Source: a virus
Virus record (IMG/VR): IMGVR_UViG_3300015366_000308
Location: 1-29,109 of that record
Length of the DNA: 29,109 nucleotides
Strand: one strand, 5' to 3'
Part shown: positions 2,467 to 27,818 of the stretch, piece by piece
Numbering within the stretch: the stretch's first letter is position 1
Layout of the letters: each line of letters starts with the position of its first letter
The notes under the pieces: generated by a model
What the model was told of the DNA's origin: nothing
The model's input: only the letters and a program-made list of their open reading frames with translations
Databases searched by the model: none
Program-made: the position numbers and the translations under genes

Positions 2467-2571
2467 CTATTTATCTGCATAAATCTTAATAAGAGAAGCT
2501 ATCACATATAAGAAGGCAGTTACTATAATAAAAGCTACCACAATGATCATTACCTTTTGATACCTGGTCAC
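2467..2571 (-). CDS. 34-residue single-TM peptide, translationally coupled to the fibre gene
   Basis: A short frame starts with GTG at 2571, overlapping the fibre stop by four bases (GTGA), and ends at TAG 2469-2467. It encodes a 34-residue peptide: a basic start (MTRYQKV), about 20 hydrophobic residues (IIVVAFIIVTAFLYVIASLI) and a KIYADK tail. ATG 2550 inside the frame would give 27 residues. The 4-base overlap, the clean N-in-basic membrane helix and the location at the head of the lysis cassette support a real small membrane protein, perhaps a holin or holin regulator. Against it, the frame is short and the start is GTG. Function is unknown. Confidence 0.5.
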   Translation of the reverse strand: MTRYQKVMIIVVAFIIVTAFLYVIASLIKIYADK

Positions 2572-5500
2572 TTATTTTCTAATTTAATAATTCTTTGTAA
2601 TAATGCTTTATTCATGGCTTTCAATTCATCCATTTTTTTTTGTTGTTTCTGAACTATGTCAACTAATACGGGTATCATGTCAATTTCATTGTAACCCATT
2701 TTACCTGTGGATGGTGTAGTGAATGTACTGTTAGGTAATACCTCTTTTACTTCTTGTGCAATAAATCCTATCTGATTCCCTGTCCCGTAATTCTGCCACC
2801 CTTTTTTATAAGTGAATGATACAGGTCGCAACTTCATAAAATCGTTAGTGCTAAATGAAAGTGGTTTAATATTTTCTTTTACACTTCTATCTGATACAGG
2901 GGCAGATAATACCCCACTAGCATCGGCTAATACAGCCCTACTTCCGCTACCCGCTAAACTAGAAAATGTTGCAGTACCTGTTGATGATAATATAAGGGGG
3001 TAAGCCCCTAAAGCATAATCATAAAAAGCAAATGAATTACCGCCTGTGGTACTTCTAATTAATGCTTTATTAGTCCCATTCTCTGTAAATAATATATCTC
3101 CCTCCCTTGTTCCAGAAGTATTTGTATGATTAATTACTAGCTGTCCATTAGTTGATGTGGTGAATGTTCCTGTATTTGCTGATAATGCCCCTGATGAATT
3201 AATACTACTCAATATCCCCACACTTGTAATGTTTGGTTGTGCTGCTGTTGATAAAGTACCGCCTAATGTAGTAGCGTTGATTATATTACCTGTGATTATA
3301 CCATTGAATAATGATGTGTCATGCGCTCCCTTTTGATTTATAGCGTATAGGTTTTGAAACTTACTTTGGATACTTGAACTATCTCTAAAATTATCTATTA
3401 CTATACCTCCGTATGTTGTTGTCTTACCTGTTACTGTCGTACCGCCTACTGTTTGGTTTGGTGTTTTTACATGAACTCCTGCTGCGTTTGCTATGTTACC
3501 TGTATTAGCAAATAAGCCCCATGCTGTTGCTGAACTAACTGGAACCGAACCACCTATATTCCCTGCGTTATTATAGTAAGTAATACCTGCGTTAGCTGTG
3601 TAAATACCGTTGTAATATGGGTTGTATGTAGCTGCTGAATTAACCGATAGTGAACCGTAGTTACCTGCATACAAAAGTTGGGTATTATCATCTGCTGTTA
3701 CCCCCCATAAATTCAATTCACCATTCTGCCCAAATTTGCTTGAATTGTTTATTTTTTTGGTGTTAGTAAATAACATTGAGAATGTGCTATCCGTTATGGT
3801 TGTGTTTTCAGTAAGCAACCCTCCTAATTTTACCTTTTTACTTGATTTGGTTAGACCATTGTAAGCATCGTTTAAATAAGGAGATAGCATTGTTAGTGTG
3901 TCGCTTATTTTAAGTCTGTTACTTAGCATCGAAGCCGTATCGGATAGATTTAATTTAGGCAATAAAGATGCTGTAACATTTGCTTTTGTAGATAATACAG
4001 TTGTATCTGCATTAACAGAACCACTTCCCGTAATAGTAGTAAAACTCATTCCTATTCCTGCTGCAACACTTGTTACAGTACCACTTCCAAATGTTTGTGC
4101 AATCTTTTTTAATTCTCCATTAACCACAGTAACAACACTATCTGAACTACTGCCATTTGACATATTTCTCAAATAAGATTTACCAGATATATCCAATGCA
4201 CCAAGTGTCTGTATTCTTCCCCCATTCGGATTTGTACTATATAACAGAAAGTTTCTATCAGTAGGAACGGATGCGAAGTGTGTTGTGTCCTCATAAACAG
4301 TAGCGAAGAAATTAGTAATTACGGCATCAGTCATATTATGCGTTCCCGAATATAAACCTGTTAATCTTCCTATATAAACAGGTGTACCAAGTGTTGACGG
4401 GGCAAACTGAAACCCGTTATAGTGTTCGTGAGGCGAACCCGAACCGCCATGATAGTAAAATCTCAATGCAGCGTCATAGCTTGCGTAAGGCGCATTTGGT
4501 ACATCAAATTGCGATGCATCACTAAATGCGTGTGCCGAATTTGACGGAAAATTTGATACGTTTAGTAACCTTGAAACCTGAACGGCTGTATTGGTTGAAT
4601 AATAACCCGATGAACCGATATATATTCTGCCACTATCGGGCATGAACGTAGTATCTGTAAATCTTTGGTTTCCTCTGTATGAATAGAAAGAATAATTATA
4701 TCTACCGCCATATACCGAAGAATAAATACCATAATTTGTTCCCGTAGTAGTACCTCCCACCCCTAATGATATACCTCTATTTTCAGAAGTAGTTGGGTTT
4801 ATATTCAAATCAAATCCCCTTGAATATCCCGTACTTCCACCGCTTGCGTTTATTAAAGTTGCATCTGATAAAGAAGCTGAAGCAAAAGCAAGTTTACCAC
4901 CTATTACACCGTTGCCGCTAATGTTGAAGTCTGCTGTTTGTTGAGAATTACCATTTACTATATAAGAACCCGAAAGGTCGGGTAAATCTGCTGCTACCAA
5001 TGACCTAAAAGTAGGCTGTTCAGGTGAACCGCTTGTAGCTGATGCAAATACTCTATTAGCGGTTTGGGTTGCAAGTGTACCTACTATTGTTCCTGAACTT
5101 GTAATAGGAGAACTTGATACTGTTATAAAGGATGGTAAAGAAAGCCCTACGGATGTTACTGTACCTGCACCCTTAGTATTTATTAATGCTCTTAAAACAG
5201 ATATACTATCTTTTGAACGGTTAGCCAACCATCCCCTTGCAAGCATATTAGCTGTATCTGAAATAAGCAAGTGATTACTCATCATAAATGCAGTATCACT
5301 TTTCCTTAAATAAGGTAATAACATTGATGAAGTATCAGTATATTTAACTACTGATGATGATAAAGGATAAGAAGAAGCAGCTATCTTTTTCACTACACCA
5401 CCACTTGTTACCAATAAGGAGTCTGTTCCTGCCGACCCAAAAGGTAATGAACCGAAATAAACATTACCCGTTTCAGTCCATAAAGCATAGTTATTTGCAG

Positions 5501-6530
5501 AAGAATTTTCTGCACGTAAATAAGCACCATAATTTACCCCTGTTGCAGCACCAACTGATGCCCCTATATAAGCATAATTAGCGTCTGAACTTGTGCCTGA
5601 TATTTGCACATCTACACCTCTACCTAATGTACCACTAACACTATTCATATTTAACCCAGTAGTTGGAATAATAGTAGCACCACCTAAAGCCATAGTATTA
5701 CCTGCTAATATAGTCCCACTTGAATATAAAGTAGCAGATGATATTCCACCGCTTGCTGATACTGATGTTGGTGTAATAGCCCCTAAACTTAATGTAAGAT
5801 TTGGGGTTGATGTTGGGTTAGTTACTATACCTGAAATACCGTTTGCATTAGTAAATCCAAATGAACTTACTCCGCTTGTCGCTGCGGTTATATTGGCTTG
5901 CAAACTATCCCTTACTTTATTTAAAGAACCACCCGTAACTAATTCTGCTACTGCCCTACCTGTATCTGCTGATACAGTAATATTAGGGTAAGTACCTGAC
6001 TTAACTATTGGTGCATTTACTGATAAATTAAATTGTGCAGGTACATTACCTGTCTTTGCATAACCACTTAGCATTGCTGCCGTGTCTGTGTAATTAACCT
6101 TACGCATAGCAACGCTATCAACATGAAGTCTTGTTGATAATACAAGCGTATCAGCTTTTACCTGACCAGACGATGTTATGGTTGAGAAGTTCATGCCAGT
6201 TCCTGCTATAACAGCTGTAACCGTACCTGTGCCTGGGGAATAACTTCCGCTTACGATCACAACCTTATCCCATCTCTTCCCGGTAGCCTTCCCGTTAAAT
6301 ACCCAGAAGGCAGAGTCAACGCCTGGATTCTGCCAGTAAACCCAAGATCCTGTATACTTTGGACTCCAAGATGTATCTCTTTTAGCAGCGATTCCAGCAC
6401 TATCGGTAAGTAGGTACCCATACTCAGCAAAGCCAGACGGTGATTTAGGAGATGCCGCTCCTGCCGGCACCTGAGATTTTGCCAAAAAGGAAATGCAGAT
6501 GCACGTAAGGATCAGTAAAAACTTTTTCAT
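2568..6530 (-). CDS. Tail fibre with signal-peptide-like N-terminus and S74 self-cleaving chaperone
   Basis: This 1320-residue protein is probably the host-recognition fibre. The last 108 residues are a Peptidase S74 intramolecular chaperone (endosialidase type). SDRSVKENIK starts at Ser1213, with Lys1218 five residues later as in the Ser-Lys self-cleavage dyad, then GFIAQEVKEVLP and a C-terminal coiled coil. The body is Gly/Ser/Thr-rich with repeated segments: GTVTSV blocks and at least six copies of an '(S/T)DTxxM' element (e.g. SDTASMLSNRLKISDTLTML). The N-terminus, MKKFLLILTCICISFLAKSQ, reads as a Sec signal peptide with likely cleavage at AKS/Q, which is unexpected for a virion protein. 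Hand counts show about 47% G+C in 6241-6420 but about 34% in sampled body lines (3241, 5341, 5641), a shift near 6060. The start overlaps the upstream stop by four bases (ATGA). Confidence 0.85.
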   Translation of the reverse strand: MKKFLLILTCICISFLAKSQVPAGAASPKSPSGFAEYGYLLTDSAGIAAKRDTSWSPKYTGSWVYWQNPGVDSAFWVFNGKATGKRWDKVVIVSGSYSPGTGTVTAVIAGTGMNFSTITSSGQVKADTLVLSTRLHVDSVAMRKVNYTDTAAMLSGYAKTGNVPAQFNLSVNAPIVKSGTYPNITVSADTGRAVAELVTGGSLNKVRDSLQANITAATSGVSSFGFTNANGISGIVTNPTSTPNLTLSLGAITPTSVSASGGISSATLYSSGTILAGNTMALGGATIIPTTGLNMNSVSGTLGRGVDVQISGTSSDANYAYIGASVGAATGVNYGAYLRAENSSANNYALWTETGNVYFGSLPFGSAGTDSLLVTSGGVVKKIAASSYPLSSSVVKYTDTSSMLLPYLRKSDTAFMMSNHLLISDTANMLARGWLANRSKDSISVLRALINTKGAGTVTSVGLSLPSFITVSSSPITSSGTIVGTLATQTANRVFASATSGSPEQPTFRSLVAADLPDLSGSYIVNGNSQQTADFNISGNGVIGGKLAFASASLSDATLINASGGSTGYSRGFDLNINPTTSENRGISLGVGGTTTGTNYGIYSSVYGGRYNYSFYSYRGNQRFTDTTFMPDSGRIYIGSSGYYSTNTAVQVSRLLNVSNFPSNSAHAFSDASQFDVPNAPYASYDAALRFYYHGGSGSPHEHYNGFQFAPSTLGTPVYIGRLTGLYSGTHNMTDAVITNFFATVYEDTTHFASVPTDRNFLLYSTNPNGGRIQTLGALDISGKSYLRNMSNGSSSDSVVTVVNGELKKIAQTFGSGTVTSVAAGIGMSFTTITGSGSVNADTTVLSTKANVTASLLPKLNLSDTASMLSNRLKISDTLTMLSPYLNDAYNGLTKSSKKVKLGGLLTENTTITDSTFSMLFTNTKKINNSSKFGQNGELNLWGVTADDNTQLLYAGNYGSLSVNSAATYNPYYNGIYTANAGITYYNNAGNIGGSVPVSSATAWGLFANTGNIANAAGVHVKTPNQTVGGTTVTGKTTTYGGIVIDNFRDSSSIQSKFQNLYAINQKGAHDTSLFNGIITGNIINATTLGGTLSTAAQPNITSVGILSSINSSGALSANTGTFTTSTNGQLVINHTNTSGTREGDILFTENGTNKALIRSTTGGNSFAFYDYALGAYPLILSSTGTATFSSLAGSGSRAVLADASGVLSAPVSDRSVKENIKPLSFSTNDFMKLRPVSFTYKKGWQNYGTGNQIGFIAQEVKEVLPNSTFTTPSTGKMGYNEIDMIPVLVDIVQKQQKKMDELKAMNKALLQRIIKLENK

Positions 6531-7126
6531 GATAAAATGACTAGGTAATTAAATGCTATGATGTAAAGTTGTGAATTTTGCACAGCCTCGGTGAATGTAA
6601 TGGTGACTAAACCAGATACGGTATCGTATATGGCACTATAGCTTACGTACCCAGGCTTATCCTGAGGAAGAATAGCCTGATCTCGGCTAACGGTAACACT
6701 CTGGTTACTCCATACCCTGTTCTTACCAATGTTAATGGTGAACGATGTGTCTCCTGCGGCTATAGGAGCACCGACATCCCCAACAACGAAATCGCTTTGA
6801 TAGTTGACAAAGGACGATACGTTCGTACCGGGGTTCACCACAATAACGCCTGTCTGGCCACTTACAATCTCAACTGCTCTCGGGATATATTCGCCACAAA
6901 GAGAATATGCATATAACGCAATCTGGCTAAGTGCTGCAGATCCTGGAAGAACAGCAGCAGCAAAGTCAATCATGTCTGAGTAAAAATTAAGCAGGAACAC
7001 AGTGCGAATATCAGCCTCACCCGGGCCATCAGAAAGCATAGCCTTCACCTTATTATCGGCACCGGATAAACCTCCGCTGATCTTGGCTAGTTCGCCCGAC
7101 AGAGTTATGGTAGTTGATGGTATCAT
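6527..7126 (-). CDS. Unknown tail-end structural protein, 199 residues
   Basis: I do not recognise this family. The protein opens with MIPSTTITLSGELAKISGG, has a helical, Ala-rich stretch (about 45-85), and ends in a Thr/Ser/Val-rich half that looks all-beta (about 95-199). Its stop overlaps the fibre start by four bases (ATGA), and its own start overlaps the stop of the preceding small protein the same way. The three genes are therefore coupled and likely made together. A fibre-attachment or baseplate-type role is an inference from position only. Confidence 0.5.
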   Translation of the reverse strand: MIPSTTITLSGELAKISGGLSGADNKVKAMLSDGPGEADIRTVFLLNFYSDMIDFAAAVLPGSAALSQIALYAYSLCGEYIPRAVEIVSGQTGVIVVNPGTNVSSFVNYQSDFVVGDVGAPIAAGDTSFTINIGKNRVWSNQSVTVSRDQAILPQDKPGYVSYSAIYDTVSGLVTITFTEAVQNSQLYIIAFNYLVILS

Positions 7127-7632
7127 CCGAAAAAGGTTGTTTTATTTTGGTACAGGTAGTAAATATCATCCAGAAAGGTTTGGGCAAGCTGTTGTTGGGA
7201 GTAGCTACCCATATTAACCGCATTCTTCAGGTCAGTCCAGAATCTAGACATAGCGTCCTGATATCCAACTTGGTTAACGATAGATGGGTTGGCTGCAATA
7301 TTCTGTGCGATTGCCACGCCAAACAAGTATGATAAAACAGTGAGCACTGCTATGCCTGTCTTCGTGTATACACTACCAGTAACAGGAGCGCTGGAAACTA
7401 GTTTTAATTCTATTCTAAGTGATAAATCCCATGGGGTAACTGCAAATGGGTATGTATCTCCATCAGTAAATGGCCACAACCCTGGCCCTAGGTTGTTCCC
7501 ATAAACATCGTAAATATTCAATGTTCTGGAAACAAATGTATTGTGCGGCTCAGAAGTATAATCGCTTGTATCGGTAACATAACCAGTTGTGCCGGTTGCT
7601 GATTGAGATACAGAGTAGTTTGCAGTGAACAT
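7123..7632 (-). CDS. Unknown tail-end structural protein, 169 residues
   Basis: I do not recognise this family. I chose ATG 7632-7630 (MFTANYSVSQSATG), preceded by an A-rich leader (CTCTACTAAA), over the TTG at 7650. The first half is polar and beta-like (YDVYGNNLGPGLWPFTDGDT). A hydrophobic helix follows at about 100-118 (IAVLTVLSYLFGVAIAQNIA), then an amphipathic helical tail. The helix may be membrane-active or a buried packing helix. Its stop overlaps the start of the 199-residue protein by four bases, linking it to the fibre operon. Confidence 0.5.
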   Translation of the reverse strand: MFTANYSVSQSATGTTGYVTDTSDYTSEPHNTFVSRTLNIYDVYGNNLGPGLWPFTDGDTYPFAVTPWDLSLRIELKLVSSAPVTGSVYTKTGIAVLTVLSYLFGVAIAQNIAANPSIVNQVGYQDAMSRFWTDLKNAVNMGSYSQQQLAQTFLDDIYYLYQNKTTFFG

Positions 7633-7675
7633 TTTAGTAGAGTTTACCAAAAATACCTATTTTATCGGAAAATGT

Positions 7676-10600
7676 TTATTTCTCCTTAGGAAGGTCATGA
7701 TGAGTGATTTCCTTATAAGCATCCTTGAGTTCTGGGGTATCAAAGAACTCCGGCTTTGTCCTAGCCAGGTTTATGAACGATGATACCCTGTTGATGTATT
7801 GTTTATATTCTTTTTTATCCTCAGGCTTCATCTCTGTCCACACCTTCAGCTGTTGCTCGGAAGGAAGATCGCGGAAGATTCTATGGTAAGGGTTCAGCTT
7901 GGCATCCCTGATGTATGCCTGCTGCCCATTGCTCGTAAGCCTGGCTTTATCTCTAACCTCCTTAGGTATGTCATTCCACTTTGTTCCGGCAAATAAGTCA
8001 TTCCTGAGTTCTCTACGAGCAGATATACGTTCGGCATCAGCTTTTGTTTTAACCTCATCCTTAAATGATTTCTGTGCCGCCACGGATATTTTATTTTGTA
8101 TTGGGGTTTGTTGGAATTCCTTTTTAGCCGGCATAATACCGAACTTCTGTTCAACCTTCTGTCTGAGTGATGGCTCCTTTTCGGAAGAACTCTGTGGTTT
8201 GAAGGAGAATGGAATAAATGATTCCCCCTCGTATTTTAAAATATCAACTCCTTTTTCAATCAAATTCCCAGAGTATATCTCAGTGCCATAAAAATCTTTA
8301 TTCTCAAACAGGCTGATCACTTCGTTGATAATTGGTGATGTTTTATCAGCCAATGTCTTACCAGGATCTTTGGCATATGAGAATGCATCTTTCATGTAGG
8401 AGGGAAGAGAAACCCTGTGATCAGTTCCGTCAGCATTCTTTGTACCGTCCTTAGGAAAGAAGTAATCACGCCATTCTTCTGGCTTCTTCCCAGTCATTAT
8501 GTATTGGTACATTGCCCCGTAAGTTCCTACCATGGCAGGTAGGGTAAGTAACCAGGCTGTGTTTGAAGTAAGTCCTTGCCCTTTCAGTAATCGTTTAGCT
8601 GACTCAGGGGCTTCTAGTGTTCCTTTACCGAAGGCCCGGATAGTACCGCCTGTCCAACCGAACGAACGGATGGTAAGAAATGCCATGTCCTTCATAGTTT
8701 TATCCCAGAACAGGTTATCATAAACCATCTGTCCTAAACGATCGTCCATGGAATCACCGGCTTTCTGGTATATTCTGGCAATCTCTTTTGGAGAAAGTTC
8801 ACCGCGACCACCTTTCATGATAATTTCGTTCTCTGCGGTACGGATCATACCTCCCACTTTAAGACGGGGAACATACCATTCCATCAATGGTTTGGCGGCA
8901 ATCTCAGGGATGGTGAGCACAAGGTTCTTAACGACTCCCGGCAGTTGTGAAAAATCTTTATCTGCTCTGAGTTTACCAATCCCTTTCTTCAGGTTGTAAT
9001 ATGAATCAAGAGTGTATATTTTGCTTAAACCGGTTCTTGCGTTCGCATCGATCATCCCACGCACAGATTCATCCATTATCCCCTTTTGCCTGTACGATTT
9101 GATGCCTTTATCGCCAACATACAGAGTTTTGCCTATGTTAGGAAGAACAGCCAACGAACTCAGTAACTGTCCAAATCCGCTTGGCTTGCCTGCAGTAAGT
9201 AACCTAACCCCCTCAGCGGCACCGGTTACGGTAGCATCCATGGTTGTGGTAGTTAAGTGGAACATCCCAAACCCTAACTGGAACAAGTTCTTAACGTTGT
9301 TGTATGCTCTTGCTGATTGGAAGGCATTCTTCATGATCACGCCTTTACCTGCGAATCCACGACTCAGGTAGTTATTAACCACATAAGCTACAGGCTCTGG
9401 CATATAGTACCCACCAGAACTTGATTTAGCGGTGCCTTCTTCCGTAACAAAGCTGCTCATACGTTTAAACAAAGGATCTTCCACCAACTGCCATCCTTCC
9501 GGCTGACCACCGGTCTTGAAAAATTTCAACAGGCCGTCCCTCTTCATTTCCTTAAACACCTTATGAGCAGCCTCGAACTTCCAGGCGTTGGTCTCAGCCA
9601 AACGTACCATTTCTTCTGGGTTGTCAGTTGCCAACTTATAACCAGCTTCTAATCCGGAAAGGATATCAGCAAAGAACCTCTGCTTCAAGAATGATTTATT
9701 ACCCTCTAATGGTGCTTTCGCATGCACTGCTGCAAAGTGAGCACCTGCTTTATCTGGTTTCTCCCAGAAGTGAGGGAAGTAATCTTCGGTGTATGGAACA
9801 TCCTTGATCTTGCTTAAAATATCGAATACATCATCCATACGCTGGCGGTACATATCAGCCATGGCTTTATATTCAGGAGTAGCATCTCCATACATCTTCG
9901 GGTTCTCAATGCTAAGGATGAAGTTTACTTTATCTTGATGAGGGATGCTATTCCAATCATTCATTAATTTATGGTGCTCTGCATCTGCCTGCTCATTCTT
10001 TCTGTTCTCTTCTCCTTTAATACCCCTGATAGCAGCCATGGTATCTCTAGCCATTTCTCTTCCTTCAAACGATGCCGCATGGAACATTTTAACACCGGCT
10101 TTGATCATATCTTTCGGCTTGGATACGAAATCTTTTATTTTCTGCCATACAGATTTGCCCTTGTCTAGGTTACCGATAGCAGTTGCAACTCTGTACTGGG
10201 TAAGTTCTTTTTTCTGCTGATCATCAAGATGACCAGAATCAACCAACTCTTTATGCAGAGCAGCAACGATATCTTTATCTGTTACCGGGTCACCAGTATG
10301 ATTATCCTTAATATGCTGCACTCCTTGTTTAACGGCATCTACGATCGATTCTCCGAGTTCAATAGCTGTGGCGATAGTTTCTATTGCACCATCCCAGATA
10401 GCGACAGGAACACCTAAGCCTGCGTCATACAGCTTACCTTTCTTGGATTTAAGTTCACGAACCTGGTCTGCTAATTTTTTGGCAGCTGGTCGAACCACTT
10501 CGGCTTTACCGAGTTTATCATTTCCTCGTCCGGTTCCTCGGTCGCTCCCCACAGAGCCTGGTTCAGATACGTCTCCTGATTTATTGGAGTCTTTTCCCTC

Positions 10601-12853
10601 AACAGCATTTTTATTACTTGATCTTGACCAGCTTGGGGTCTCAATTCCTCCGGCAGCATCATTAACCCGTTGTCTTGCTTCATGGATATTTATTTTATGG
10701 TTAGCGTAATCTTTCCATATTTGAGATACAGCTTCTTTGTTTTTTGCATCACTTTTAAACGTGTCTTTAAATAACCCCCTTACAGCTTCCCAGGTTATCG
10801 ACTGCATCTGGCGAGCAAGTATTCCTCTTTCTTTTGCAGCCATATCGTAAGCCTCAGATAATGCAGCATACGTACCGGATATACCCGTTTCAGCAGATCC
10901 TTTGCCGGATAAGTTATCCTTCACTTTTTGATCACTGCCTGCCAATGGCTCCAGAAATGCAGCAGCTACTGCATGTGTGTCAATAGTAACATGCGGTGTT
11001 TTTGAATTAGGATCAGAGATGTTGTTATTAAAGCTTCGAACCTTATGTTCTTCTCCCAACTGTTTTGATATATTTTCAGGGGAGCCGTCCTGTGCTAACG
11101 ATATTGCTTTATCAATAGTACTATACCCTTGCCACCCCACCTTTGAATAGGCAGCAACTCCTTTTTTATCTGGTTTGTTTTTTGCAACGCCTATAATGTC
11201 ACCATTTGGAGAGTATACGTTGTATGATTTTGAATTGTATGCCTCATCATAAGATCGTAACATTTGAGGGAAATAGTCGCGGTCTTCGGATAGTTTTTTG
11301 CCAAGTAACCCGGCTGCACTCTTCTTTGCATCTTCTGTTTGTTTCTGCATCCTGGCATCGAATGCTTCTTTTGATTCACCTTTCATTACCTGACCTCTGC
11401 CAGAAAGTTCTACGTATTTATCAATGATCTTTTGATCAATAATGAAATCTGATTTTGTTTTAACAATATCAATAACACGTTCAGCTAGACTGATATTTTT
11501 ATACCAATCCATCTGTGGGCTTAAAGATGCTAGTACTGCTGATGCCTGTTCATTTGACATCTTATATTTTTTGGCAAGATTCTGAGCCAATACATTAGCC
11601 CCGTCATACCACCTCTCGGAAACCTTGCGAACATCATCCGGAACGCTATCGTGCAGCCACAATAGGTTATCTGCTACTTTACGCACAAAATCCTTATACA
11701 CACGATCGGCAGCTTCCATTCCTTTTGCCTGCAGTTCTGGGCTACCACCTTTTGATTTTGGAAGGAGACCCTTCTCTATCGCTTTTACATCTTTAGGATC
11801 AGTAAATCTTCTCATAAGGTCGTAGCTGGCAATCGTCTGGGCGATGGTCATGTAATTACTAGGAGATTTACGTGCTTCTTTCAGATTAGCTACGTTGTCA
11901 CCTGTTTTATGTACCGCAGACTGATCAGTGCCGGCAGATGTTGGGACTCTGGTGGAAACTGTTTTACCAGAGATGACTTTATTTTCTACATCGTCCTTTT
12001 TTAACTCAGCAACGTGTTTCGCATCTTCTTTGGCTATATCAAATTTTGCAGGCTTGGATAATGATTGATCCTGATCTTCCATATGCTTTCTAAACATCGC
12101 TTCGCCCCACTTCTTTCCGGACATATTTTCATTTACCCAGTTAACGGTAGCTTCAATAGCTTTACCGAATTCTGTATTTTTTTCTACCTGGCTAGCTAAG
12201 AATTCAAGTGCTCCATCATAAATAGCTTTGGTAAGACCTAGGTCTGGTAATACGTTCAATGTTCCTTTATCGCTTTTTAGGCTGCGGATACGATCGGCTA
12301 ATTGCTTTGGTGATTGTTTTACTTCTGTTGGGGTTGTTTCATTTTTAATTGGTTCTCGGTACATTGTTTCTTTGGTAGTAAAGTCTTTATTACTTCCCTT
12401 ATTTTCAACGAACCCGAATTGTTTATAAAAGTCTTTAAGTCTATTAACGGAGGTTGCACCAAAATCGGTTGATGGTGTTAATACAATACGCTTACCATTT
12501 TCGTCTGCATACTTTACAATATCTTCCATTGCTTTACTACCGATACCACTTCCTTGTTTATCTTTTGGCACTTCTATTCTCGATAGCGTTAAATCACCTA
12601 ATGCACCTTTTTTATTCAAATCACCCATTAAGTCCAAAGTAATACCATGCTTTTCTTCCATTTGTTTTGAAAAATCAGATGGGGTTACTCCTTTTGCATC
12701 CCCTACACTACCACTACCTTCTTCTATTGGTTTAGGGGGTTTTAAATCATTCTCAGCCAAATGCTGCTTAAACGCTTCTTCCCCTTTGAATTCTTTTTTT
12801 GATCCATCCGGTAGCGTAAGAGTGAATATGCAGTCTGGAGAGTATGATGGCAT
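7676..12853 (-). CDS. Giant polyvalent-type virion protein with GNAT-like and HhH-GPD-like regions
   Basis: This 1725-residue protein is probably carried in the virion and ejected with the DNA. From the N-terminus: a short 'LTLPDGSKKEF' strand motif (11-21); a GNAT-like acetyltransferase segment (about 70-165) with QGSGIG at 100-105 as the acetyl-CoA loop and DFYKQFGFVE near its end; a 60-residue helical repeat (183-244); a region at about 410-670 with SPQMDWYKN (445-453) and HVTIDTHAVAAA (621-632); a second copy of the helical repeat (792-852); then a long helical part with DYFPHFWEKP (1024-1033) of the kind seen in phage large polyvalent proteins. The TIDTHA segment resembles the VDTHVxR catalytic loop of HhH-GPD DNA glycosylases. 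Sampled G+C is about 39% across 10741-11520 but about 50% in sampled lines of the C-terminal half. The start follows the ATP-grasp stop after three bases. Confidence 0.6.
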   Translation of the reverse strand: MPSYSPDCIFTLTLPDGSKKEFKGEEAFKQHLAENDLKPPKPIEEGSGSVGDAKGVTPSDFSKQMEEKHGITLDLMGDLNKKGALGDLTLSRIEVPKDKQGSGIGSKAMEDIVKYADENGKRIVLTPSTDFGATSVNRLKDFYKQFGFVENKGSNKDFTTKETMYREPIKNETTPTEVKQSPKQLADRIRSLKSDKGTLNVLPDLGLTKAIYDGALEFLASQVEKNTEFGKAIEATVNWVNENMSGKKWGEAMFRKHMEDQDQSLSKPAKFDIAKEDAKHVAELKKDDVENKVISGKTVSTRVPTSAGTDQSAVHKTGDNVANLKEARKSPSNYMTIAQTIASYDLMRRFTDPKDVKAIEKGLLPKSKGGSPELQAKGMEAADRVYKDFVRKVADNLLWLHDSVPDDVRKVSERWYDGANVLAQNLAKKYKMSNEQASAVLASLSPQMDWYKNISLAERVIDIVKTKSDFIIDQKIIDKYVELSGRGQVMKGESKEAFDARMQKQTEDAKKSAAGLLGKKLSEDRDYFPQMLRSYDEAYNSKSYNVYSPNGDIIGVAKNKPDKKGVAAYSKVGWQGYSTIDKAISLAQDGSPENISKQLGEEHKVRSFNNNISDPNSKTPHVTIDTHAVAAAFLEPLAGSDQKVKDNLSGKGSAETGISGTYAALSEAYDMAAKERGILARQMQSITWEAVRGLFKDTFKSDAKNKEAVSQIWKDYANHKINIHEARQRVNDAAGGIETPSWSRSSNKNAVEGKDSNKSGDVSEPGSVGSDRGTGRGNDKLGKAEVVRPAAKKLADQVRELKSKKGKLYDAGLGVPVAIWDGAIETIATAIELGESIVDAVKQGVQHIKDNHTGDPVTDKDIVAALHKELVDSGHLDDQQKKELTQYRVATAIGNLDKGKSVWQKIKDFVSKPKDMIKAGVKMFHAASFEGREMARDTMAAIRGIKGEENRKNEQADAEHHKLMNDWNSIPHQDKVNFILSIENPKMYGDATPEYKAMADMYRQRMDDVFDILSKIKDVPYTEDYFPHFWEKPDKAGAHFAAVHAKAPLEGNKSFLKQRFFADILSGLEAGYKLATDNPEEMVRLAETNAWKFEAAHKVFKEMKRDGLLKFFKTGGQPEGWQLVEDPLFKRMSSFVTEEGTAKSSSGGYYMPEPVAYVVNNYLSRGFAGKGVIMKNAFQSARAYNNVKNLFQLGFGMFHLTTTTMDATVTGAAEGVRLLTAGKPSGFGQLLSSLAVLPNIGKTLYVGDKGIKSYRQKGIMDESVRGMIDANARTGLSKIYTLDSYYNLKKGIGKLRADKDFSQLPGVVKNLVLTIPEIAAKPLMEWYVPRLKVGGMIRTAENEIIMKGGRGELSPKEIARIYQKAGDSMDDRLGQMVYDNLFWDKTMKDMAFLTIRSFGWTGGTIRAFGKGTLEAPESAKRLLKGQGLTSNTAWLLTLPAMVGTYGAMYQYIMTGKKPEEWRDYFFPKDGTKNADGTDHRVSLPSYMKDAFSYAKDPGKTLADKTSPIINEVISLFENKDFYGTEIYSGNLIEKGVDILKYEGESFIPFSFKPQSSSEKEPSLRQKVEQKFGIMPAKKEFQQTPIQNKISVAAQKSFKDEVKTKADAERISARRELRNDLFAGTKWNDIPKEVRDKARLTSNGQQAYIRDAKLNPYHRIFRDLPSEQQLKVWTEMKPEDKKEYKQYINRVSSFINLARTKPEFFDTPELKDAYKEITHHDLPKEK
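10298..10480 (-). repeat. Helical repeat copy 2 in the 1725-residue protein
   Basis: Encodes residues 792-852, starting KKLADQVRELKSKKGKLYDA and including VAIWDGAIETIATAIE. It is a diverged copy of residues 183-244 (KQLADRIRSLKSDKGTLN, KAIYDGALEFLASQVE). The two copies flank the HhH-GPD-like region. Confidence 0.7.
12122..12307 (-). repeat. Helical repeat copy 1 in the 1725-residue protein
   Basis: Encodes residues 183-244, sharing the pattern K-x-LAD-x-(V/I)R-x-LKS-x-KG ... A-I-(Y/W)-DGA-(L/I)-E with the second copy at residues 792-852. From memory, the same helical element recurs in many phage polyvalent proteins, often between domains. Confidence 0.7.
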
Positions 12854-12856
12854 TGG

Positions 12857-14125
12857 TTATTTTTTAAAGAGTTCTATTCCGTATTCAGCAGCTTTCTCGA
12901 TTTGGCCTTTAGCCTTCACCAAGTCATCGCAATTTATGGAAATACTGTCACCTTCCACCATCTCGGCTATCCTTTTCGCATCTTCGATAGCTTCTTCCAT
13001 GGTATCACCAAGCCCGATCACACTTCCAATACCCACCTCTTCATGATCTTCAGTAAGCGGTATGTAATACAAAACGCCATCCTTGATCATTGGGCACTGG
13101 ATTTTAACCCGATCTTTCACCTTGGAAGGGAAATACACAGCCTGTGGGGAATGTGCCGCCATTGAGGATTTAATGATCACCTGAGCACCAAACTTGGCAG
13201 CAGGCTTAATAACCGGTACTTCCCCATTAGCGATCTCCCACAAAACCTGAGAGAAATTATCTATGATCTCACACATCAGAAACCCGGGAGGATTTGGAGC
13301 ACGGTTGGTGGAATCAATAAGGTATCCTGTCTTCTTATCCCATCTGATCTCAGAAGAGAAGAAACACCGGTAATTGGTTTTTTTAAACGCCTTGGATAGT
13401 TTTTCATTCACCTCGGTAACGCATTCCGGCAACGATTCATACGGTACCAGACCGCCAACATATCCGCAATCTTTCACCTCAATACCGCACATCGCGATCT
13501 CAGGGAACTGTCCTTCTATAGAAAATCCATCATATCCTACCTCAACGGCATCAGGTATTGGTTTCTCCACCACAAACACAGCTTCTTCCTTAAACGCTCC
13601 AAGGATCTCCTGCATGCGGTCAAGGCGGCTTTCAGATAGCCTATGGCTGATATAATGGAATGTTTCTCCAGACCCACGGATAAGGTTGGTCTTTATATAC
13701 AGGTCTTCTTTGTTTTTAAGGTATTTTTTAAGTGCTGAGAACCCTTCGATAACGTTGTAATCGTTTACTGGTAATCCTACTTTCTCCATCAGTTCTTTGA
13801 GATCATCTCGGTAAATTTCCATATCCTCACCATAACGAGCACCGAATACAACCTTACCTATGGATACCAGATATTCCTGCAGCCCTGCCTGATACAGATC
13901 GGGGAACACAAACCAATCACACTCGTCAATCACATCCCAAATGCTATCCACACGTTCAACATTATCCATCCCCATTCCGATGGCATACTTATTCCATTTG
14001 GGCATTGAATCCTGCCACATAGTAGTAACGTATACTTTATCGCAGTCCCTGGCTAGCCTCTCCGCAATGGGGAAAAAGTATCCATAATCCACTACGCACA
14101 CCGTTGTATTTTTTACTGACTTCAT
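12857..14125 (-). CDS. ATP-grasp ligase (PurD-like)
   Basis: This 422-residue protein is predicted to join a carboxylate to an amine using ATP through an acyl-phosphate. It has an N-terminal Rossmann-like part (TVCVVDYGYFFPIAERLA, 8-25). A PurD-style helix segment (about 106-136, KELMEKVGLPVNDYNV) follows, then the candidate ATP-binding Lys145 (YIKTN) with the glycine loop RGSGETF (150-156). The metal-binding end is SSEIRWD (Glu259) and DSTNRAPNPPG (Asp271, Asn274). The C-terminal 'VIGLGDTMEEAIEDA' (369-383) resembles the last domain of PurD/biotin-carboxylase-type enzymes. A purine role is unlikely: the gene sits between two giant virion-type genes and overlaps the HExxE gene by four bases. 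The substrate, perhaps a peptide or a surface or virion component, is unknown. Confidence 0.7.
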   Translation of the reverse strand: MKSVKNTTVCVVDYGYFFPIAERLARDCDKVYVTTMWQDSMPKWNKYAIGMGMDNVERVDSIWDVIDECDWFVFPDLYQAGLQEYLVSIGKVVFGARYGEDMEIYRDDLKELMEKVGLPVNDYNVIEGFSALKKYLKNKEDLYIKTNLIRGSGETFHYISHRLSESRLDRMQEILGAFKEEAVFVVEKPIPDAVEVGYDGFSIEGQFPEIAMCGIEVKDCGYVGGLVPYESLPECVTEVNEKLSKAFKKTNYRCFFSSEIRWDKKTGYLIDSTNRAPNPPGFLMCEIIDNFSQVLWEIANGEVPVIKPAAKFGAQVIIKSSMAAHSPQAVYFPSKVKDRVKIQCPMIKDGVLYYIPLTEDHEEVGIGSVIGLGDTMEEAIEDAKRIAEMVEGDSISINCDDLVKAKGQIEKAAEYGIELFKK

Positions 14126-14511
14126 AACGAGTCTATTTTTTGTTCATAATCAGCCCAAGACAGACCAGCCATAGCGAACATCTGCATTTCAACTGCTTGT
14201 GCTGCAATATGCTCTTTCATATACGGGGCCTCATTAGAAAAGCCTGGTTCAGAGTTTTCTGGGACTAATCCCAATTCCCTTCTCTTCTCATAATACAGAT
14301 CGAAATCCATGATCTCTTGTTCAGATAGTCCACGAAATTTTGTTAATACCTCTTCAAACATTTCGTGGATTGCTACTGCGGTCTCGTAGAATGAGTTACC
14401 CATCTCTGTAACTCTGATTTGTAATACACCATCAGCATCATAAAAATAGTCACCACATGTTTCATATCTGTGCTGGCTTTTAGGTATTGACTTGATGTGT
14501 ATTTCTATCAT
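14122..14511 (-). CDS. Small conserved-looking protein with HExxE motif
   Basis: This is a 129-residue protein of unknown function. The visible core is AIHEMFEEVL (His49, Glu50, Glu53, Glu54), then EIMDFDLYYE (Asp71), then EPGFSNEAPYMKEHIAAQ (His101), with Glu108 after it and a Trp-Asp-Tyr ending (SWADYEQKIDSL). Clustered His/Glu residues on helices suggest a metal site; the HExxE core is reminiscent of zincins but lacks the second His of HExxH. I recall similar short phage proteins annotated only as hypothetical. It overlaps the genes on both sides by four bases (upstream 1130-residue protein, downstream ATP-grasp), so the three are tightly coupled. Confidence 0.5.
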   Translation of the reverse strand: MIEIHIKSIPKSQHRYETCGDYFYDADGVLQIRVTEMGNSFYETAVAIHEMFEEVLTKFRGLSEQEIMDFDLYYEKRRELGLVPENSEPGFSNEAPYMKEHIAAQAVEMQMFAMAGLSWADYEQKIDSL

Positions 14512-17500
14512 GATTTAACGATTTCTCTGAGTGGCATTTTTCTTTTTGATCCTGGAGGGCATTTGATTTTAAGAGAACCTTCTTCCTTCATTTGTTTAAT
14601 AATTTCTTCTGGTGTGCGGCCATGCTTCTCCTGAATCTTATCATCGATGGTTTTCTCTACCTCAACTTTTTCTGGCGAGAATTTCTTCCCATCCTTGTAC
14701 GGGGTGGCATTCTCAAAATCTTTATCCTTCAAAAACTCAGCCTTTGCTTTCTCATTCCACTCCCCATTGTTATGATCAAGAGCGTCCATCATTTTAAGAA
14801 CCTTACCGTGGGTAACCACAGCAGTTTCTTTATTCAAACCCGATATCTCATCTCTGGCCGACTGCACCCTTCCTTTGAACTGGTTAAAACTTTCACCACC
14901 GGGAGGTGCTTCATCTGGATGGTTAACCCAATATTTGGTATCGAATTCAGAGATTGGTGTTTTATCTGCACCAGTATTCCACTCGGCAAGCTTATCATTA
15001 GTAACCACCTCGCCACCTGTCTTCCCAACAATCGCTTCAGCTGTTTCCTGTGCCCGGGTCATTGGTGACGTAACAACGTTCTTAATCCCACTTGCCGCCA
15101 ATTCTTCGCCAAGCTTTTCAGCCTGCACTTTGCCCTTCTCATTCAATGGATCATCAGCTGCACCGGTAAGGCCTAGCTTGTTTGAATCAGTTTCGCCATG
15201 GCGAATCAATACAGGGGCCGACTCCGACTTGGCCACAGCTGCTTCTTTTTTTGATTGGTCTTCAGCTTTCTTCTCTTCCTTCTTAGATGGAACATCAAAG
15301 TAGCCTTCTGATTCAAGTTTTTTATATAATGGGTCGGATACCTCATCCAAATGTTTTTGTGCCGATTCTGGTTTGTCGGCTACCTCTTTTATTTTATCAT
15401 CAATTGCCTTAATCTTCTGCTCAAATGATCCTTTAAATTCAGAGCCTACCGTTGATTGCTCCTGTTGTAGTTCTTCTTTTTTCTTGATCAGGTCGAACGT
15501 TGCTATTCTTTGTTCCTTGGTAAAGCTTTCCGGGTAACTCATCTGTATAGCCTCAGACACATCCTTTTTCATTCGCTGCAGTGCGGTCTCGTTATAAGAT
15601 GCATCTGTTTTTGAAATGGTAATTGCGTCATCTATGGCCCGGAGAGTGGTAAGCGGATGATCTTCTGCCATCTTTAGCACCATAGATCGTGCTGCAGACT
15701 TGTCTCCAAATGAGGAGACCCCATTCATAATCGATCCCATCACACCAAACATCAGTGCAGACTCAGAAATCTTGCCTGGCTCAAGCTGGTCGGCAGGAAG
15801 CTTCGTCCCTTTCTGCATATTGATGTAGCTATTCATAGCCCAATCAGCCATGCCGTTAGCGGTAGTGATGGCAGCGCCGGCACCAGTTGCGTGGATACCA
15901 GGAGATATGAACTTTGAATAAAAACTTTCAAGTGCTGATTTATCAACCACACCCTTCTTGATCACCTCTTCAATTTCCTTATTGATAACGCCATGGTCAA
16001 GTAGTTTTCCTTTTGGAAGAATACTTTGGCTGAGTACTAACGCAGAACCGCCAAGAATTCCTTTTAAGTGGGCGGTTACATTATCCAACCCGTTGGCTCT
16101 AGCCTCACGGTAATAATCGTTCTGCCCTTGTAGAAAGAATGGGACACCTTCCCGTAGAATAAAAGGTATGGTGCCGCTAATAGAACCGCCTCCGACAGCC
16201 ATGGTCATAGCCATCACCGGGGCTAACCCACCAGCCATTTCACCCAAGCCGTCTGAGAAATTTGCTAACTTCTCCCATGCGGTATTACCTGCACGTATAG
16301 GAGTTCTTAAATCAAGTTCTGACTTTTTTTCACCAGAAATTTCTTTCCCAATCTGGTCTTCAGTAAACCCGATATCACGCATGATTCCTGACCTGATTGA
16401 CTCGGTAGAATTACGCACTCCTCTCAGGAATGTTTTTATAGAAGAAAAGTAATCCCCTTTCTCATCGATAGCTTTCTGCTCTTTTTCTGCCTGTTTCATA
16501 CCCGGGAAGTAATCTGGCAGCCTTTGCGACATCTCATATCCTTTTGCCTGTTTGGATAACAGGGAGAGTGCAGCCTGGCCATCGGGTGTGCCGAGTAATT
16601 CAATATCTTTTAAATGCTGATCATTCTTCACCTTGTATTCAGCAGCCTTCATTTTAAACGCAGCAGACAGAGGAGAATCCTTCATGGTTTCCAGAGTGTG
16701 TTTGGTCAGCTCAAGCTTGATGGCGTTGTACTGTTTCTGGTCTGCCGGGGATACACTTTTAGGATCACGCATCATCTGTGCTTCGATCTCGTGCAACCTG
16801 TCGAAAGCCTCCGGCATTTTTTGGTAAAGCGAAGGCTCTCCTGCTAACCGAAGTTTTGCTGATATATTATCCTGATCCTGATTATATTTATCGGTGTATT
16901 CTGCGAACTGGTTATGCTTATCAATAGCATCCATGATTGCCCATGGAGCATAATGAGGTGCTACCTTGGATAATGGCGTATCCATCTCAAATGTCTTCAT
17001 GATAGCATTGTCGGCAGCCTGCATAGCACCACCTTCATTTAGATCCTGCCCAGTTAAAAAACCTGTCTCTGCCTTGAAGTTCTTCCATAACTCAGGGTTG
17101 GATGCCATCATTTTACTCACACGGTAGTTGCCTGATGCCTCCATGTTACGCAATAAATTCGTTGCTCTGGTAGCTTCTTCACTGTAATCTTTATCGGTAG
17201 CCTGCTTATCCCAAAACGCCTGCACTTCTTTGGTGGGCACTTTGCTTTTAAGCCCTGTCTTATCATCAACCTGCTCAGTAAATCCTTCGTCCTTAAACCT
17301 GGTACTGAACATAGTAATATCACTCTCTCCTCTGATTACAGAAGGCTTGTTGTACCCCTGCCAGGATAATTTACCGGTATCTGGGTCTTTACGCAATTGA
17401 ACATATTCTCTAGTCCAAGCAGGATTCTTCATGCCTAGGTGATCAACGTAATCACTACGCATGCCTTTTGGCATCTTAACGATAGATCCTTCATGACGCT

Positions 17501-17900
17501 GATCTTCTGGGATACTATAATCTGCATACAGGTCTCTCTCGAATTCAGCCTGGCGTTTAGCTAAATCCTTTGCTGCCTTATCATCTTCGATGGGTACCTG
17601 TTGAGTATTTACTTTGTTTAGTTTGTCGGCCGACTGAGCAATCATCCTATTAGAAACCTGCTCATTATTCTTAATTCCTTGGTAGTTTTTCTTCTGATCA
17701 AGCATGTATTGTGACATGCCAATGACGGCAGCCTCGCCAACAGTCTTTGGTTTTTGCTTCTTTAAAAGTTCTGCGAAGTCCTGATCGGACATTTTGTTAT
17801 CAAACATACCTTCAGGCACATCGCCCACAGGCTTAAACTTAGTACCTGCGATAGGTTTATCTAGTGTAACCTCGTCTATTTGTGTTTGTGGATCGGTCAT
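14508..17900 (-). CDS. Large ejection-type virion protein with C-terminal histidine phosphatase
   Basis: This is a 1130-residue protein. Residues 1-550 are charged and helical. About 552-592, 612-628, 667-690 and 712-730 are hydrophobic or glycine-rich and could insert in a membrane, as in internal ejection proteins of podoviruses. A Lys/Glu-rich linker (about 800-892) leads to a histidine phosphatase (phosphoglycerate mutase-like) domain at about 895-1040. It has LIRHGET with nucleophile His901, LNEKGKVQAEKLG, SPMTRAQETA (Arg949), LAEW (Glu973, candidate acid), PPGGES (Glu1003) and VVTHGK (His1031). All core residues are present, so it should be active on some phosphate ester or phosphoprotein. 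A tail with KCPPGSKRKM follows. The stop overlaps the HExxE gene by four bases. Confidence 0.7.
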   Translation of the reverse strand: MTDPQTQIDEVTLDKPIAGTKFKPVGDVPEGMFDNKMSDQDFAELLKKQKPKTVGEAAVIGMSQYMLDQKKNYQGIKNNEQVSNRMIAQSADKLNKVNTQQVPIEDDKAAKDLAKRQAEFERDLYADYSIPEDQRHEGSIVKMPKGMRSDYVDHLGMKNPAWTREYVQLRKDPDTGKLSWQGYNKPSVIRGESDITMFSTRFKDEGFTEQVDDKTGLKSKVPTKEVQAFWDKQATDKDYSEEATRATNLLRNMEASGNYRVSKMMASNPELWKNFKAETGFLTGQDLNEGGAMQAADNAIMKTFEMDTPLSKVAPHYAPWAIMDAIDKHNQFAEYTDKYNQDQDNISAKLRLAGEPSLYQKMPEAFDRLHEIEAQMMRDPKSVSPADQKQYNAIKLELTKHTLETMKDSPLSAAFKMKAAEYKVKNDQHLKDIELLGTPDGQAALSLLSKQAKGYEMSQRLPDYFPGMKQAEKEQKAIDEKGDYFSSIKTFLRGVRNSTESIRSGIMRDIGFTEDQIGKEISGEKKSELDLRTPIRAGNTAWEKLANFSDGLGEMAGGLAPVMAMTMAVGGGSISGTIPFILREGVPFFLQGQNDYYREARANGLDNVTAHLKGILGGSALVLSQSILPKGKLLDHGVINKEIEEVIKKGVVDKSALESFYSKFISPGIHATGAGAAITTANGMADWAMNSYINMQKGTKLPADQLEPGKISESALMFGVMGSIMNGVSSFGDKSAARSMVLKMAEDHPLTTLRAIDDAITISKTDASYNETALQRMKKDVSEAIQMSYPESFTKEQRIATFDLIKKKEELQQEQSTVGSEFKGSFEQKIKAIDDKIKEVADKPESAQKHLDEVSDPLYKKLESEGYFDVPSKKEEKKAEDQSKKEAAVAKSESAPVLIRHGETDSNKLGLTGAADDPLNEKGKVQAEKLGEELAASGIKNVVTSPMTRAQETAEAIVGKTGGEVVTNDKLAEWNTGADKTPISEFDTKYWVNHPDEAPPGGESFNQFKGRVQSARDEISGLNKETAVVTHGKVLKMMDALDHNNGEWNEKAKAEFLKDKDFENATPYKDGKKFSPEKVEVEKTIDDKIQEKHGRTPEEIIKQMKEEGSLKIKCPPGSKRKMPLREIVKS

Positions 17901-27225: not shown

Positions 27226-27258
27226 TTGGGTTGATTTGAGAAAAAGTTTTTAGATTTG
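27226..27258 (+). promoter_or_regulatory. Putative Bacteroidota-type promoter of the HNH cassette
   Basis: TAGATTTG at 27251-27258 matches TAnnTTTG exactly. TTG at 27226-27228 lies 22 bases upstream, near the usual 19-21 spacing for the -33 element. The expected transcript start, about 27263, falls after the ATG at 27261 and about 115 bases before the ATG at 27381. This favours the latter as the real start and leaves a structured leader. Confidence 0.4.
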
Positions 27259-27300
27259 TGATGTCTGAAGTAGAACCCAGATTAATTATCACAGAAACTG

Positions 27301-27368
27301 CCCCAGAGGGCGGTTGGGCGAAGAGAGAGAAAGTCTCAATTCGGTTCTACCCCAATCATCCTCTGGGG
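27301..27368 (+). promoter_or_regulatory. Structured RNA element in the HNH gene leader
   Basis: The 68 bases fold into one long interrupted hairpin: CCCCAGAGG (27301-27309) with CCTCTGGGG (27360-27368), 9 bp; GGTTGGG (27312-27318) with CCCAATC (27351-27357), 7 bp including one G-U; CGAA (27319-27322) with TTCG (27340-27343); GAGA (27327-27330) with TCTC (27334-27337). It is followed by TATTTTTATTTT and then the ATG at 27381. It can therefore act as an intrinsic terminator/attenuator on the plus strand or as a regulatory leader. It does not fit a tRNA cloverleaf. Confidence 0.5.
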
Positions 27369-27380
27369 TATTTTTATTTT

Positions 27381-27818
27381 ATGAAAGAACGTAAAAAACA
27401 GCACAAACTAAGAAGCCATAAACTATACGGAATTTGGTCTGACATGAAAGATCGGTGCTACAATACTACCAGAGTCAGGTACCATAGATATGGTGGTCGC
27501 GGAATAACCGTTTGCCAAAGATGGTTGGACGATTTCAAAAATTTCTATGATGATGTTATAGAAGGATACAAGGAAGGATTAGAACTAGATCGGGTAGATA
27601 ATGACGGCAACTACGGCCCAGATAATTTTAGATGGGCCACCCATTTACAGAATACAAGAAATAGCACTGTTGCAAAGCTAACGGAAGAGTCTGCTGAATA
27701 CATACGGACTTGCGGTAAGTCAACAAAAGAACTGATGGTTCAGTTCGGCATGTGCAAGTCTGCAATCAATAGAGTAAAAAACGGGAAGACATGGAAGAAA
27801 ACAGATACGCCCCAATAA
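27381..27818 (+). CDS. HNH homing-type endonuclease with C-terminal HTH
   Basis: This 145-residue protein is the only plus-strand gene. Residues 13-50 (HKLYGIWSDMKDRCYN, YGGRGITVCQRW) are typical of free-standing phage HNH nucleases. The catalytic core is ELDRVDNDGNYGP (68-80), with Asp70 and Asn74 and then RWAT and QNTRN. A helix-turn-helix-like tail (about 99-140, TEESAEYIRTCGKSTKELMV) should add DNA recognition. ATG 27381 follows TTTTATTTT. The frame stays open to ATG 27261, but those 40 extra residues span the hairpin and lack family features. Such genes spread by cutting cognate alleles. The stop codon lies in the loop of the shared terminator. It sits between the capsid gene and the ring-protein genes. 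Confidence 0.85.
   Translation: MKERKKQHKLRSHKLYGIWSDMKDRCYNTTRVRYHRYGGRGITVCQRWLDDFKNFYDDVIEGYKEGLELDRVDNDGNYGPDNFRWATHLQNTRNSTVAKLTEESAEYIRTCGKSTKELMVQFGMCKSAINRVKNGKTWKKTDTPQ

Follow-up and report, generated by a model that had tools for sequence, protein, structure and literature searches.

What do four tightly packed genes in the virion module of an uncultured phage have to do with one another? The question is raised by a 29,109-nucleotide stretch of DNA (hereafter the window), a fragment of the IMG/VR virus record IMGVR_UViG_3300015366_000308, in which P0001 (14508..17900, 1130 aa), P0002 (14122..14511, 129 aa), P0003 (12857..14125, 422 aa) and P0004 (7676..12853, 1725 aa) all lie on the minus strand. 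As a sequence-only reading had described, they are joined by a 4-base overlap, a second 4-base overlap and a 3-base gap. That reading took the four genes for one coupled unit, an injected or virion-modifying system made of two giant ejection-type proteins with enzyme domains, an HExxE protein and an ATP-grasp ligase. The analysis reported here shows instead that the inner pair, P0002 and P0003, is the conserved unit, a portable two-gene cassette that many unrelated viruses carry in a similar position.

The window has a near-identical copy on a 64-kb twin contig, IMGVR_UViG_3300014933_000403 (locus L089; P0001 99.9%, other compared genes 100%), on which scaffold-like, capsid-like, portal-like, terminase and replication genes are additionally present. 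Upstream of the four-gene block lies P0007 (20332..24297, minus strand), a muzzle-like virion protein that matches phrog_14478 (E 2e-46), is homologous to gp097 of phage phi38:1, and matches crAss_MUZ_C below the cut-off (E 4e-4). Two further minus-strand genes of the backbone virion module are assigned by position only: P0006 (19602..20402, 266 aa) occupies the place of phi38:1 gp099, and P0005 (17934..19589, 551 aa) has the place and size of the structural protein gp100, to which a direct comparison found no sequence match. Because the muzzle and the terminase (TerL) are nearest, at 25-29% identity, to those of Cellulophaga phi38:1 and phi40:1, Tenacibaculum Gundel_1 and the Flavobacterium elemo phages, which places them closest to Elemovirus, Pervagoviridae and Pachyviridae phages (Pervagoviridae being the family assigned to phi38:1), we classify the virus, judging from these proteins, as a distant relative of the flavobacterial podoviruses with some crAss-like traits. 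The window also encodes a tail-fibre-like protein with an S74 endosialidase-chaperone end (2568-6530) and, on the plus strand among minus-strand virion genes, an HNH endonuclease (27258-27818). On the twin contig, a cytosine-methylase-looking gene (6117-8243) and a run of glycosyltransferase- and methyltransferase-looking genes (10993-16390) were recognized by eye.

The two giants carry most of the enzyme domains that had been noticed. P0001 ends in a histidine phosphatase (residues 897-1038; PF00300, E 2e-33) that keeps the RHGE and THG motifs and has PDB relatives at 5e-10, and P0004 has a GNAT-like domain at about residues 54-173, for which the Pfam match is weak and identity to the GNAT stretches of phage proteins of the DarB/PLxRFG type is 40-52%. 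Both domains had been called correctly. An HhH-GPD-like fold had also been proposed for P0004 and is rejected: residues 374-744 correspond to DUF7178 (PF23802, E 5e-27), and the PDB search returned no glycosylase. The C-terminal helical part (residues 900-1690) is homologous to giant proteins of three other ligase loci (L061, L055 and L065). Calling the giants ejection-type finds support only in position, given that the giants of named relatives are annotated as structural there, and in a weak LPD38 match in a relative of the P0004 C-terminus; P0004 itself gives no confident LPD domain match. GNAT belongs to the phage polyvalent-protein repertoire (PMC5512222), and P0004 resembles polyvalent proteins (DarB, PLxRFG, LPD38) in its N-terminal GNAT and large multidomain build, but it differs from them in the missing LPD match, and the likeness concerns the flank and not the cassette.

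Conservation of the block was the check that had been suggested for the four-gene unit. Among the 79 other listed ligase loci, relatives of P0001 are found only on the twin contig, and the enzyme half of P0004 has no relative. Conversely, phi38:1, Gundel_1 and elemoF lack the ligase but have giant structural proteins following the muzzle-like one. Because the HExxE-ligase pair recurs elsewhere without P0001 and P0004 and the named relatives have giants without the ligase, the four genes do not form one unit; this is the outcome that the sequence-only reading had itself named as refuting the block. We also considered whether P0001 and P0004 together represent a single phi38:1/elemo giant that has been split, and rejected this, as the correspondence is one of position only and clear homology is limited to the GNAT stretch, which Gundel gp074 matches at E 3e-6. 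The two giants are thus backbone virion-module proteins with enzyme domains of their own, flanking the conserved cassette. By analogy with the muzzle-bearing phage crAss001, which packages large cargo proteins that are thought to be ejected (PMC10172136), they may well be packaged in the virion, which is a separate matter from the pair.

P0003 is an ATP-grasp ligase with a predicted PurD-like fold, as distinct from PurD itself. A profile built from 40 relatives matches PDB structures of PurD (GAR synthetase) with an HMM E-value of 1.2e-7, and the AF2 model (pLDDT 95.4) superposes on GAR synthetase over the whole chain (Foldseek E 8e-20, TM 0.75), which upholds the earlier ATP-grasp call. K145, R150, E259, D271, R275 and N290 are invariant in the 40 relatives, so that the lysine (K145) and acidic metal ligands (E259, D271) that, with the fold, mark the ATP-grasp superfamily are present. 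Despite the shared fold and residues, identity to PurD in structural alignments is 12-17%, the PurD signature R-x-G-D-P-E-x-[EQ]-[EQS] occurs in none of the 80 listed relatives, and P0003 sits in virion modules. None of the 40 family members has a Pfam ATP-grasp or GARS match at E 0.1, and P0003 has no convincing PHROG match. The C-terminal domain of L-amino acid ligases (LAL_C2), enzymes that likewise carry out ATP-grasp amide ligation, is weakly matched in 7 of the 40 (best E 0.0069), but this match is sub-threshold and the genomic context of those ligases is different. Given the complete GAR-synthetase-type fold and the retained lysine, arginine and acidic metal-ligand residues, P0003 should activate a carboxylate and couple it to an amine; ATP-driven ligation of this kind is well supported by the alignments and the model. 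In a group of T7-like phages (L010-L013 and L037), the ligase bears an N-terminal extension of about 100 aa.

Its partner P0002 carries the HExxE motif that had been reported. Across the 42 members of its family, H49, E53, D71, H101 and A104 are invariant, while E108 is kept in 41 and E50 in 39; no stretch of the family is conserved strongly enough for profile scanning of viral contigs. The AF2 model (pLDDT 96.7) is compact, with the invariant histidine, glutamate and aspartate residues on three helices. Searches with the model gave no confident structural match and no PDB match; in BFVD, weak SprT/IrrE-like matches were obtained (TM ~0.4, E > 0.02). A canonical zincin has HExxH and a third ligand, whereas P0002 has HExxE, and the expected zincin base E50 is lost in 3 of the 42 members. 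P0002 is therefore not a canonical HExxH zincin, and we think it probably binds a metal as a zincin-like hydrolase that would prepare the substrate of the ligase or reverse its reaction. In several loci (L029:4890-5585, L028:2690-3385, also L038 and L039), the HExxE protein is fused to an Erv1/Alr thiol-oxidase-like domain; both fusions tested, L029 and L028, score above the cut-off for PF04777 (Erv1/Alr).

In order to see how widely the pair occurs, we scanned IMG/VR for the ligase family and found it at at least 80 viral loci (85 candidates confirmed), of which 80 listed loci, many of them fragments, were used for counts. In 42 of the 80, an HExxE gene is found no more than 1 kb from the ligase gene, and in 26 of these 42 it is directly upstream, overlapping the ligase gene or separated from it by at most 20 bp. 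Among 30 contigs on which the ligase has no HExxE neighbor, only one carries HExxE elsewhere. Between the two families, ligase and HExxE, the correlation of distances is weak (r 0.15, p 0.02). Other genes can occupy the partner position: a SpeD/AdoMetDC-like gene (PF02675, E 2.5e-6) is upstream of the ligase in 9 of the 80 listed loci, 2 of which also have HExxE, an M28-like gene is present in 3, and 28 have none of the three partners. In L003 (3354-3935) and L071 (9424-9984), the M28-like peptidase gene, recognized by a weak Pfam match and by motifs seen by eye, is upstream of the ligase and replaces HExxE. No ligase was found in 50,697 named phage records with three ligase queries, and no HExxE protein was found in named phage records with one HExxE query. 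In bacterial genomes, the ligase family was detected on four contigs only, three of which are MAG pieces of less than 8 kb and one of which is already an IMG/VR virus. Both a ligase and a SpeD-like gene are present on NZ_AKIY01000059.1, a contig of Bradyrhizobium sp. YR681 that could be an inducible prophage.

In 57 of the 80 listed loci, the ligase lies no more than two genes from a protein of at least 900 aa or no more than three genes from a portal or presumed portal, whereas genes drawn at random from the same loci do so in 21 on average and in 34 at most (2000 draws). PHROGs confirm a single portal family and a single capsid family, along with the tail protein of the T7-like group. In addition, the ligase tree and the backbone are partly uncoupled, with 15 changes of backbone where the minimum would be 4. 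The description virion-modifying, which fails for the four genes as a unit, therefore remains live for the ligase pair, which is found again and again, across unrelated phages, near portal or giant proteins of the virion module.

Gain and loss can be followed in backbone 1, the largest backbone, with 80 loci, 69 of which had enough sequence to be scored; its portal, capsid and terminase are named from gene order and size only, the databases giving no support for these names. In 41 of the 69 loci, the ligase separates the presumed portal gene from c7, the backbone gene that follows; it is absent in 28, in which the presumed portal gene often runs straight into c7. On the tree, this amounts to at least 11 changes of ligase presence or absence at one fixed site. 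HExxE accompanies the ligase in 18 of the 41 positive loci and occurs in none of the 28 negative ones (Fisher 1.3e-5, in a test that ignores relatedness); independent pairs show a trend in the same direction, in a comparison that cannot reach significance.

Backbone 1, alone among the backbones, also encodes small Lys/Arg-rich peptides immediately behind the ligase, which they often overlap by 4 bases. By a charge criterion, such peptides are found in all 39 ligase-positive loci in which c7 was also found and in 4 of the 28 negative loci, although the interval searched is longer where the ligase is present. One of those four, L157, is nested in a ligase-positive clade and has neither ligase nor HExxE, and yet retains between the presumed portal and c7 an intact type I peptide and the decayed relic of a type II peptide, as expected after a recent loss of the cassette. 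An aromatic residue occupies one of the last three positions in 43 of 68 peptide tails, compared with 50 of 319 other proteins. The motif QxLVDQTPVYD is common to type I peptides and to the presumed capsid protein, where it is N-terminal; an example is the 52-aa basic peptide at L058:11281-11439, which is similar to that protein in its N-terminal motif and has counterparts in other backbone 1 loci. Type I peptides were considered as a ligase-specific feature and rejected, since their N-terminal motif is also in the presumed capsid protein and a plain count shows no link.

Taken together, we think that the cassette probably acts late in infection and attaches something to a virus protein, a peptide or a small molecule. 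For the more specific reading, that it is a portable, late-expressed ligation cassette that modifies a virion-associated polypeptide or small peptide, we see about an even chance. Inserted in the late (virion) transcription unit, P0002 and P0003 would be made together with virion proteins; P0003 would use ATP to convert a carboxylate to an acyl phosphate and couple it to an amine, P0002 would serve as a metal-dependent helper or hydrolase, either preparing the substrate or undoing the reaction, and the target would be a polypeptide or small peptide produced along with the virion. In backbone 1, the best candidate substrates would be the small lysine/arginine-rich peptides whose genes come right behind the ligase. 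Because no dedicated small basic peptide adjoins P0003 in the window, this idea is not directly transferable to it.

The main rival, which we hold to be possible but less probable, is that the cassette makes, late in infection, a small molecule such as an amino-acid or polyamine conjugate. A SpeD-like pyruvoyl decarboxylase or the metal hydrolase would provide the amine for the ligase to couple, and the product could neutralize packaged DNA or alter the host envelope. It is the main rival because some phage SpeD homologs decarboxylate ornithine or arginine (PMC9992855, PMC10407285). The SpeD-like gene is prominent in backbone 2, which has a confirmed P22-type portal and carries the ligase in 28 of 53 loci: it is present in 20 of the 28 ligase-positive and none of the 25 negative loci (Fisher 1.6e-8, a test that again ignores relatedness). 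Ligase presence here follows clades, with two changes only, and HExxE, seen in 3 of the 28 positive and none of the 25 negative loci, was found without the ligase in neither of the backbones tested, 1 and 2. Basic proteins with an RGxISxKA motif were considered as ligase-linked genes of backbone 2 and rejected as backbone genes, because they are present with and without the ligase. That the nearest fold to P0003 is a small-molecule ligase also favors a metabolite. Against it, the pair in the window lacks a neighboring SpeD-like gene, and a metabolite pathway would not need a link to virion genes and basic peptides. Moreover, the SpeD-like protein (L024:9631-9993 and 23 further distinct copies) keeps the E-S cleavage pair, but its activity is unsure because each of the 19 readable copies has Asp where the second His would be.

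A further reading is a previously unrecognized modification system in which the ligase, with its metal-site partner or the SpeD-like decarboxylase, might covalently tailor small Lys/Arg-rich virion peptides, one type of which copies the presumed capsid N-terminal motif, into a packaged protamine-like cation for DNA condensation or ejection; we regard this as speculative and rather doubtful. An injected payload of all four genes acting at the start of infection is improbable: the tight gene overlaps, the polyvalent-type GNAT of P0004 and the cargo proteins of crAss001 speak for it, but the pair occurs without P0001 and P0004, backbone relatives fill the place of the giants without the pair, and the stand-alone P0002 and P0003 bear no sign of packaging. 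Equally hard to favor is an accessory, moron-like gene that is expressed late from the virion operon, is directed at a host protein, translation or the envelope and has no tie to the virion, for although frequent gain and loss at a fixed site would suit it, and the rare phage ATP-grasp peptide ligases of the R2K family have been discussed as host-protein modifiers (PMC7824862), several unrelated backbones have the ligase next to genes for portal or giant virion-module proteins, and it is gained together with small basic peptides, one type of which resembles the presumed capsid N-terminus.

Known systems offer partial parallels to the cassette. Graspetide (RiPP) clusters resemble backbone 1 in that an ATP-grasp gene adjoins a small peptide gene, but the backbone 1 peptides are Lys/Arg-rich, and the window lacks such a peptide. 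The cassette ligase is one that we take to be PurD-type rather than graspetide-type. LUZ24-like phages also encode an ATP-grasp protein with partner enzymes, in their case Amidoligase_2 and a glutamine amidotransferase in an early gene module (PMC3890496), whereas the cassette lies in a late module and combines a PurD-type fold with an HExxE partner. The ligase family may overlap with a family named in a published amidoligase survey.

The ligase family is thus unmatched in Pfam, in PHROGs and in the named phage records that were searched, yet many uncultured phages that are unrelated to one another have it, repeatedly at a similar position among the virion genes. The natural pairs of loci with and without it make the virion-target and small-molecule ideas directly testable. 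If a small molecule is made, the cassette would represent a new late-stage phage pathway; if virion peptides or proteins are modified, it would point to a general, so far unseen layer of phage particle chemistry.
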